The notes under the pieces are model-generated. The model made no database searches. It saw only the letters and a program-made list of their open reading frames with translations, and had not been told where the DNA came from. A stretch of DNA of 64,000 nt from Methanobrevibacter millerae (GTDB taxonomy: Archaea > Methanobacteriota > Methanobacteria > Methanobacteriales > Methanobacteriaceae): contig NZ_FMXB01000002.1 in NCBI RefSeq assembly GCF_900103415.1, positions 82,257 through 146,256 of the forward strand, written 5' to 3'. Of the stretch, positions 1 through 2,493 are shown piece by piece. Position 1 is the first letter of the stretch; each line of letters begins with the position of its first letter. The position numbers were made by a program, and so were the translations under genes.

Positions 1-26
1 ATTGATGTCTCAGAGATAAATTGTGA
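1..26 (+). repeat. Inverted repeat, left arm, in hsdS 3' coding region
   Basis: Bases 1-26 are identical to the reverse complement of 1257-1282. The match ends at base 27 on the inner side and is cut by the window edge on the outer side, so the true repeat is probably longer. It lies in the conserved C-terminal coding sequence of both hsdS copies and encloses the recombinase gene. Homology or site-specific exchange between the arms would invert the segment between them. Confidence 0.8.
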
Positions 27-108
27 CATGCATCTAATAATTCATCAAGCCTATATAAATATTTTTACATTAACATTTCACAATAACATAATGGAGGTAT
101 TAATATGA
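1..108 (+). CDS. hsdS: Type I restriction specificity subunit, 3' end only (truncated by window edge)
   Basis: Frame 1 is open from the window edge to a TGA at 106-108. The first residues, IDVSEINCD, are identical to the C-terminal end of the inverted hsdS at 1247-2476, so this is very probably the tail of a second specificity subunit that chooses the DNA target of a type I restriction-modification enzyme. After the shared part the two proteins diverge: this copy runs on about 26 residues, whereas the other stops after DLE. The TGA overlaps the ATG of the recombinase (ATGA at 105-108), so the two genes may be translationally coupled. The bulk of the gene, and presumably hsdM and hsdR, lie to the left. 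Confidence 0.65.
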   Translation: MDVSEINCDMHLIIHQAYINIFTLTFHNNIMEVLI

Positions 109-1091
109 AAACTAAAATTATTTCTAAAATACAAAATCAAATGAAACCTTACTTGAATCAAGGACAATATATAAAATTAACAAACTCTTTATTAAATTCG
201 TTGCAAGATATAGATATTATTGATAATAACAATGAATTAAATGAAGTAGATAATTTTAAATTACTAAACCTTTTTTTATCTGCTAAACAGGTCGAAGGAT
301 GTTCCGAGAAAACAATCAAATATTACAAATCCACTATCGAAAAAATGCTGAAAAAAATTAAAAAACAGGTTTATAACATCAGTACTGATGATTTAAGAAA
401 ATATCTTTTTGATCATAAAAATGAAAAACAATCCTCAAAAACAACAATAGACAACATTAGAAGAATTTTTTCAAGTTTTTTTTCTTGGTTGGAGGATGAA
501 GATTATATCATAAAAAATCCTGTAAGAAGAATTCATAGAGTTAAAACTGGTCGTGTAGTTAAAGAGGTATTGACTGATGAAAATTTAGAAGTCCTTAGAG
601 ATAACTGTGAAGAAATTAGGGATTTAGCAATGGTTGAAATATTAATATCAACAGGAATACGGGTTGGGGAATTAGTAAGACTAAATGTAGAAGATATAAA
701 TTTCTATGAACGTGAATGCATAGTATTTGGAAAAGGAGAAAGTGAAAGGGTGGTATATTTTGATGCAAGAACAAAAATACATTTAATTGAATATTTACAA
801 TCAAGAGTAGATGAAAATCCTGCTTTATTTGTTTCACTAAATAGCCCTTATGATAGGTTAGGAATTAGTGGAGTAGAAACTAGACTTAGAGAACTCGGAA
901 ATAAATGCAATATAAATAAAGTTCATCCACATAAATTTAGACGAACTATGGCAACAAATGCAATTGATAAGGGAATGCCGATAGAACAAGTACAGAAATT
1001 ATTAGGTCATGTGCAAATTGACACAACAATGCAATATGCAATGGTAAACCAAAGCAATGTAAAACTAGCACATAGAAAATTCATTGGATAA
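105..1091 (+). CDS. Tyrosine recombinase/integrase (XerC/D-like), likely hsdS invertase
   Basis: 328-residue tyrosine recombinase that cuts and rejoins DNA through a 3'-phosphotyrosine. The N-terminal SAM-like core-binding region (about 50-145) is followed by the catalytic domain with the full residue set: R186 (STGIRVGEL), K210 (FGKGE), H276 and R279 (HPHKFRR), H302 (LLGH) and nucleophile Y311. The ATG at 105 is supported by GGAGGT at 93-98 and overlaps the hsdS stop. It sits between two hsdS copies in opposite orientation, which is the usual place for the invertase of phase-variable type I restriction loci. An integrase of a decayed mobile element is the alternative, but no attachment site or phage genes are visible. 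Confidence 0.9.
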   Translation: MKTKIISKIQNQMKPYLNQGQYIKLTNSLLNSLQDIDIIDNNNELNEVDNFKLLNLFLSAKQVEGCSEKTIKYYKSTIEKMLKKIKKQVYNISTDDLRKYLFDHKNEKQSSKTTIDNIRRIFSSFFSWLEDEDYIIKNPVRRIHRVKTGRVVKEVLTDENLEVLRDNCEEIRDLAMVEILISTGIRVGELVRLNVEDINFYERECIVFGKGESERVVYFDARTKIHLIEYLQSRVDENPALFVSLNSPYDRLGISGVETRLRELGNKCNINKVHPHKFRRTMATNAIDKGMPIEQVQKLLGHVQIDTTMQYAMVNQSNVKLAHRKFIG

Positions 1092-1228
1092 ATTCTTGTT
1101 TAGTTTTGTGACAATTTTATAAAATAGTAATATAACAGTGTTATTATTTAAGTAAAAAAAGTCCAAATTAATGTTAAAATCAAAAAATAAGAACAAATAG
1201 CTATTTTTCAATTGAGAATATAAAAAGA

Positions 1229-1253
1229 AGAATAACAGTTAAACTGCTATTCT
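1229..1253 (-). terminator. Stem-loop at the 3' end of the inverted hsdS
   Basis: Arms 1229-1239 and 1243-1253 pair over 11 positions with one mismatch and a TAA loop. The stem spans the hsdS stop codon, and on the minus strand it is followed by a T-rich stretch (CTTTTTAT). It could terminate either convergent gene. It also lies only a few bases from the inverted-repeat arm, so a role in recombination is possible. Confidence 0.5.
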
Positions 1254-2476
1254 AAATCACAATTTATCTCTGAGACATCAATCTCTCCAGACATTAACTT
1301 AGGCAGTAATGTATCTCTTAATTTAGTCAAATTTGTTATTTCATCAGATATTTTATTTTTATAATTAAATATTGGTGAAATAAACTCATTAAATTTAATT
1401 ATCACTTCATCATCAGGCATTATTAATTCTAATGATTTAAATTCAGTTTTATTAAATTTACTTTGTACAGAACCTGCAGTAATTGTACTTATTAAATACT
1501 GTCCAAAATTTGATCTAAATAATAAAAACAAATAAAAATTAAGGTAAATAGCATCATCATTAGATTTAACTAAAATCATGTTATTTCCCAAAGTCATTGG
1601 TTTATCTAAGAAAGGACATAAGAATACGGATCCAACATCACCCACATTAGATATTATTATTTCATTACCATATAATGAAGATTTCTTTAGAAAATCATAA
1701 GAATGCTTGTTGACAAATTTTTCAAAGCATTTGGCTTTTAAATCTGTGTTTCTTATAAAATAAGCATAATCTTCATAATCTAAAATAGACACATTTTCTT
1801 TTAATGATGCAAAACTACCATTTGCCACATAATCTGTGATAATTAAGGGTAATTCGCCAATTTTTTTAATTTTCCAATTAGTGTCTGCATTGTCAAATTT
1901 ATTTATAAAATACTCCTTAAATAATAAATCTAATAAATCATCTAAATTTTTATTTATTCTTATATTGGTTTCAATTTTATCATCAATTGTTGATAATATA
2001 TTTATAATTTTTTCCTGTATTTCTAAAGAAGGTATTTTAATTTCAAAATCCTTTATTGTCTGTGAATTTAAATTTTGTTGAGCTGCTCCTGATGCTAAAT
2101 TCATTAATTTTTCAAAATTATTATATAGATGATAATAAACAAATTTTGGCTTTGCAATTTCTTCATTAATGGTTAAATTACAGCAAGCTTGATTTGTAGT
2201 TAGATCAACCATGTTCATTGCAACTTTTGCTGCTGTTGCACCATACATTGCAACTATTACAGAATTCTTTTTAACCCATTTAGCAGCACTATTTTGAAAG
2301 CCTAATTCACTTATATGTTTTTCAGTATCATATATTCTATTAAAATTAATTTCTTTTGTATTTAACCAAGGAATATCTCCACCATAATAATCTTCATTTG
2401 TACTTTTTGGTGTTCCTCCACTTGAAACTTTTGAACATACATCATCTATTGTTCTACTAGACCATTCTAAACTCAA
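1247..2476 (-). CDS. hsdS: Type I restriction specificity subunit, inverted (probably silent) copy
   Basis: 409 residues with the two-target-domain layout of HsdS. The first target recognition domain starts with SGGTPKS and GGDIPWLNT (residues about 19-40), and a central conserved helix follows near 150-185. The second target domain begins near 205, and the C-terminal helix carries LRDTLLPKLMSGEIDVSE. Full-length HsdS proteins are about 400 residues, so this copy is intact in length. It faces the recombinase and the other hsdS. The only start that gives full length is a TTG at 2476 inside a palindrome, with no ribosome site or clear promoter, which fits a storage cassette that is expressed only after inversion. 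Which half or halves are exchanged cannot be decided because most of the partner gene is outside the window. Confidence 0.88.
   Translation of the reverse strand: MSLEWSSRTIDDVCSKVSSGGTPKSTNEDYYGGDIPWLNTKEINFNRIYDTEKHISELGFQNSAAKWVKKNSVIVAMYGATAAKVAMNMVDLTTNQACCNLTINEEIAKPKFVYYHLYNNFEKLMNLASGAAQQNLNSQTIKDFEIKIPSLEIQEKIINILSTIDDKIETNIRINKNLDDLLDLLFKEYFINKFDNADTNWKIKKIGELPLIITDYVANGSFASLKENVSILDYEDYAYFIRNTDLKAKCFEKFVNKHSYDFLKKSSLYGNEIIISNVGDVGSVFLCPFLDKPMTLGNNMILVKSNDDAIYLNFYLFLLFRSNFGQYLISTITAGSVQSKFNKTEFKSLELIMPDDEVIIKFNEFISPIFNYKNKISDEITNLTKLRDTLLPKLMSGEIDVSEINCDLE
1257..1282 (-). repeat. Inverted repeat, right arm, in inverted hsdS
   Basis: Exact reverse complement of bases 1-26. It encodes the end of the conserved C-terminal segment of this hsdS. 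The distance between arms is about 1.2 kb and contains the recombinase. Confidence 0.8.
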
Positions 2477-2493
2477 ATTTAAATTTGAGTTTA
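2468..2493. repeat. Perfect 26-bp palindrome at the 5' end of the inverted hsdS
   Basis: Each half is 13 bases (TAAACTCAAATTT and its complement) with no spacer and no mismatch. The palindrome contains the first codons of the inverted hsdS and, read the other way, gives the same TTG-AGT-TTA start to the small frame at 2485. It may be the crossover or binding site of the neighbouring recombinase, or a cruciform left by past inversions. The function is inferred, whereas the symmetry is directly visible. Confidence 0.85.

Follow-up and report, generated by a model that had tools for sequence, protein, structure and literature searches.

A putative invertible hsdS locus with its own tyrosine recombinase and three position-specific site classes in a methanogen

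Can a methanogen change its methylation and restriction specificity by inverting DNA within its hsdS genes? The question is raised by the left edge of a 64,000-nucleotide stretch of the Methanobrevibacter millerae genome (the window; G000:C2:82257-146256). Inverting hsdS systems have so far been characterised in bacteria, while this host genome encodes methyl-coenzyme M reductase (two mcrA genes). An earlier note on the same DNA had read the locus as an invertible hsdS switch and had placed the switch in specificity at a 26-bp repeat shared by the ends of two hsdS genes. The first part of that reading stands – there is good support for an invertible hsdS locus that has a recombinase of its own. 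The second part does not: recombination between the end repeats would flip only the recombinase and the tails of the genes, so the stress on the 26-bp repeat was misplaced. A change of specificity would go through sites at the start and in the middle of hsdS, which the note had missed. The features of the locus, in window coordinates, are as follows.

1–108, plus strand: tail (3' end) of the hsdS next to hsdM, presumably the active copy, reading IDVSEINCD-MHLIIHQAYINIFTLTFHNNIMEVLI and a stop; the rest of the gene falls in the assembly gap that precedes the window
1–26, plus strand: left arm of the 26-bp inverted repeat, an end site (core at 17–26, TAAATTGTGA; right arm degenerate, CATG)
52–98, plus strand: putative control region of the recombinase, with TATA-like TATATAAA (52–59) and ribosome site GGAGGT (93–98)
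105–1091, plus strand: tyrosine recombinase, 328 aa, with catalytic R186, K210, H276, R279, H302 and Y311 all present
1089–1102, plus strand: putative fourth core, TAAAT-TCTT-GTTTA, spanning the stop codon of the recombinase gene, in the closest relatives only
1247–2476, minus strand: silent hsdS, complete, 409 aa, TTG start, two target-recognition domains (ORF and family search)
1253–1266, minus strand: end-site core TAAAT-TGTG-ATTTA of the silent hsdS
1257–1282, minus strand: right arm of the 26-bp inverted repeat, a perfect match to 1–26
1943–1956, minus strand: middle site TAAAT-AAAA-ATTTA, between the two target-recognition domains
2468–2481, minus strand: start site TAAAT-TTGA-GTTTA, with the TTG start codon inside it; its counterpart is at G000:C2:81003-81016, behind GGAGGG
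2480–2493, plus strand: second, outward-facing copy of the start site, overlapping the first to form a 26-bp palindrome (2468–2493)

This layout confirms much of the earlier description: two hsdS genes do face each other around a complete recombinase, and their inverted repeats are perfect over at least 26 bases. The tail codons beyond the repeat also differ, as had been reported, one copy ending in CDLE and the other in CDMHLIIHQAYINIFTLTFHNNIMEVLI; the stop codon of the CDMHLIIHQAYINIFTLTFHNNIMEVLI copy overlaps the recombinase ATG. The silent 409-aa HsdS contains two Methylase_S stretches by family search. The last 35 codons alone of the hsdM-proximal gene lie within the window, and the leftward extension that the note had proposed recovered what precedes them. 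The order there is hsdR, hsdM, a GGAGGG ribosome site, an hsdS start (TTGAGTTTA) and a gap; AAATGGAGGGATAAATTTGAGTTTA follows hsdM, and 1,240 N then run up to window base 1, about the length of one hsdS. The left hsdS is a real gene with its body inside the assembly gap, and hsdR, hsdM and this hsdS form one operon. Reading frames are intact in hsdR, hsdM, the recombinase and the silent hsdS. The missing body was sought across the assembly by family search and was not found. Other hsdS genes were rejected as candidates for it because they are part of separate systems on contigs C4 and C10. The starts of these two contigs (G000:C4:1-7209 and C10:1-530) code for the same hsdS stretch; joined, they give hsdR-hsdM with three tandem hsdS genes and no recombinase, and their junction is a further assembly break inside hsdS.

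The recombinase matches the Pfam family Phage_integrase (1.5e-35), and its six catalytic residues are invariant among 78 aligned recombinase sequences. The recombinases of the Methanobacteriaceae form one clade (SH-aLRT 100), which includes a single contig titled Bacteroidota, probably a binning error. Because it has its own TATA-like sequence and ribosome site, the recombinase should be expressed whichever way it points. In three relatives (L024 8699–10984, L025 541–2391 and L135 9531–11822), the hsdS gene adjoining the recombinase continues in frame into it, making one HsdS-recombinase open frame of 617–764 codons. A functional fusion was rejected, since the tail frame is not conserved.

Inverted repeats were found at three fixed places in hsdS in about 13 related Methanobacteriaceae loci – the beginning of the gene, the stretch between its two recognition domains, and its end. 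All three site classes have a common core, TAAAT-N4-(A/G)TTTA, with a 4-bp centre that depends on position: TTGA at the start, AAAA or a variant in the middle, and TGTG at the end. The TTG start codon sits within the spacer of the start site. The three sites lie in one reading frame, encoding IN-xx-LE (xx is Met-Ser at the start), and this placement holds across the hsdS copies of the clade. Across the 2.72 Mb of the genome, the start core has three occurrences, all of them at the two hsdS starts (reversed control, 0). In the first 5 kb of the window, no other inverted-repeat pair near the quality of 1–26/1257–1282 was found. The candidate fourth core is common only to L024, L025, L026, L132 and L133 besides the window.

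In this strain, the right arm is missing from the end site next to the recombinase, with TGTGACATG where TGTGATTTA is expected, so end-end exchange may be weak or impaired here. The outward start site repeats the active one in direct orientation, which makes excision of the whole cassette through it conceivable. The silent hsdS begins within the palindrome that the two opposed start sites form; at a comparable place, L026 has two silent hsdS genes head to head.

Two further observations concern the range of sites. A segment of another contig, G000:C30:2626-2794 (L010), is 93% identical to window 1096–1266, the segment from the recombinase stop to the hsdS end. One border of this copy is a complete end core, and an adhesin-like ORF is interrupted; removing 165 bp restores a single continuous frame (...GLLENNLTKYYKNDSQYY...). 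The copy looks like an off-target insertion by the recombinase; a clean empty site matching it was sought in relatives and was not found. There is also a second Methanobrevibacter recombinase clade (L035, L138, L139, L143), of 66–70% identity, that adjoins hsdS genes. These hsdS genes have few or no TAAAT-N4 cores and have other repeats in common (CAACAAATGTTTGTT; TTCGCACAGAAATTAAGA), which suggests that the second clade uses a different recombinase site.

Taken together, the locus is very probably a working hsdS switch with four specificities that keeps its recognition domains in register. The recombinase would recognise the TAAAT and (A/G)TTTA arms at all three positions in each hsdS. Because the 4-bp centres differ by position, exchange would be restricted to start with start, middle with middle, and end with end, always between inverted copies. 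A start-start inversion would swap the whole gene behind a fixed ribosome site, a middle-middle inversion would swap the second recognition domain, and an end-end inversion would flip the recombinase alone and change the C-terminal tail. Two hsdS copies would thus give four HsdS proteins, and a clonal population would then have four specificities of methylation and restriction. A more specific reading seems slightly favoured over its negation: that the three site classes, having the same arms and different centres, are insulated from each other and serve one archaeal recombinase as an address code, giving a methanogen four specificities in the first such archaeal switch. Such a code would keep the recognition domains in register and in frame, with the start codon doubling as a spacer.

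The GGAGGG ribosome site lies just outside the invertible part, and the inverted hsdS has no ribosome site, in agreement with the earlier note; the absence of a promoter, which the note had also claimed, is not demonstrable from such AT-rich DNA. Within the clade, GGAG, GGTG or GATG precedes 10 of 11 hsdM-side start sites. The starts of the silent copies have no such ribosome motif, with the exception of one copy in L026 (TAGGTG).

A comparison set of about 80 loci, found through the recombinase, shows how closely the sites follow hsdS. Within 150 bp of hsdS the core density is 1.11/kb, against 0.044/kb elsewhere (254 and 46 sites), so that cores are about 25-fold denser at hsdS. The bacterial loci typically have 2–4 sites with a single spacer class per locus, while the Methanobrevibacter clade of the window has three spacer classes.

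The relatives also differ in ways that inversion would produce. In the window and L028 the recombinase runs in the same direction as hsdM; in L023, L024, L026, L027, L029 and L132–L136 it runs the opposite way. Its orientation is a parity record of inversions, so opposite orientations count as a sign of activity; the two loci that point with hsdM are not sisters in the tree (fork support 82). Among relatives, the two recognition domains have been reassorted independently of each other: domain 1 of the silent gene resembles that of an hsdM-side hsdS of L135 (79%) and of a silent hsdS of L027 (82%), and its domain 2 resembles the silent gene of L024 (91%) and also L136 (75%). The same holds for other pairs, in every case domain 1 with domain 1 and domain 2 with domain 2. 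A search of the clade for exchange between domain 1 and domain 2 gave only short or ~30–36% matches, and the domains therefore appear to stay in register. In 7 of 12 two-copy loci both genes agree exactly over the last 24 bp before the end core, compared to 4.6% of between-locus pairs, which is only suggestive of activity given the relatedness of the loci. Uniform concerted evolution over 40–60 bp was not found – mean identity is about the same within and between loci, and only exact identity over the 24 bp beside the core separates the two kinds of pair.

Assembly breaks give a further, indirect sign of switching. Seven of the 15 contig ends inside hsdS fall 0–4 bp from a core, where the density of sites predicts less than 1%. 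The assembly gap next to the window opens on the final base of the start core and closes where the 26-bp repeat has its edge, and a gap in Prevotella (L090) has a core at both edges. A 14-bp repeat alone would not be expected to break an assembly, but two different continuations beyond it would.

Some of these observations could be read in other ways. The locus may once have switched and now be frozen in this strain, with the recombinase silent or the sites decayed and the second hsdS a relic. The lost right arm of the end site beside the recombinase and the orphan outward start site flanking the silent hsdS would both fit such decay, but the recombinase and silent hsdS are full-length intact frames, both copies have a perfect start core, the end repeats agree over 26 bp, and the assembly breaks at the edge of the start core. 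A frozen locus is improbable on this evidence. Alternatively, general homologous recombination or gene conversion might exchange the repeats with the integrase-like neighbour uninvolved; switching at the long pneumococcal repeats is partly independent of the locus recombinase (PMC7096588). The shared tracts here are 14–26 bp, far below the 85–298 bp of those repeats. The cores stand at fixed positions, 25-fold enriched near hsdS, in loci defined by this recombinase, and the S. suis homologue with 14-bp repeats depends on its recombinase, all of which makes this explanation very unlikely.

It is hardly credible that the locus is two independent, expressed hsdS genes with a recombinase from an unrelated integrated element. 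The SsuCC20p system of S. suis does have an hsdS at a distance from hsdM that is both transcribed and active (PMC10790761), but in this locus the inverted copy has no ribosome site, nor have nearly all silent copies in relatives, while 10 of 11 hsdM-side starts have one or a near match. The recombinase family accompanies hsdS in most of the ca. 80 loci, and no other element genes were seen beside it.

A working switch would mean that methanogens of the gut and rumen use programmed inversion to vary their antiviral defence, and possibly also their gene expression. Control of whole-genome expression, as claimed in the earlier note, is an extrapolation from bacteria and is unsupported. The site grammar, common to many phyla, predicts the position at which the recombinase would cut, and the one-class bacterial and three-class archaeal loci offer a direct test of spacer limits on domain exchange.

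None of the six archaeal datasets in a survey based on sequencing reads showed inversions (PMC5903667), and a pneumococcal paper mentions archaeal homologues, naming none (PMC4948785). The searches, which covered open-access journal papers, yielded no account of a functioning inverting hsdS system from an archaeon or methanogen.

Among known systems, the locus resembles SpnIV tvr of S. pneumoniae in the shuffling of hsdS by a recombinase (PMC6265443). That system works by excision and reintegration via direct repeats, whereas inverted pairs dominate here; the outward start site would permit excision as in tvr. The layout – hsdR-hsdM-hsdS, inverted hsdS copies and a tyrosine recombinase – is like that of the PsrA/CreX cod locus (SpnIII) of S. 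pneumoniae (PMC4948785, PMC7096588). Both have three separate repeat classes, with an IR1-like sequence required in each, and inversions at the two longer pneumococcal repeats depend on such internal sequences (PMC7096588). SpnIII has three hsdS genes, and its repeats measure 15, 85 and 298 bp; here there are two genes and the tracts are 14–26 bp.

The likeness to SsuCC20p includes the recombinase itself, which shares 66% identity with the enzyme of Streptococcus suis 10581, a named SsuCC20p carrier without TRD2 and TRD3 (PMC10790761). Switching in SsuCC20p, with repeats of TAAATCATCATTTA, stops on deletion of its recombinase gene (PMC10790761). The two systems have the same 14-bp site form and the same hsdM/hsdR with an extra hsdS around the recombinase, and sites of the form TAAA(T/C)-N4-(A/G)TTTA are present at hsdS, as for SsuCC20p-type recombinases. 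SsuCC20p has identical sites at all locus positions, with one spacer class, and its TRDs change places. Here the spacers fall into three position-specific classes, so the locus would work like SsuCC20p yet is not classed as that system; the sites at start, middle and end, the whole inverted second gene and the archaeal host also set it apart. The kind of system is known in bacteria, and what is new is that the host is an archaeon, that its site map can be tested, and that it has three putatively insulated site classes.
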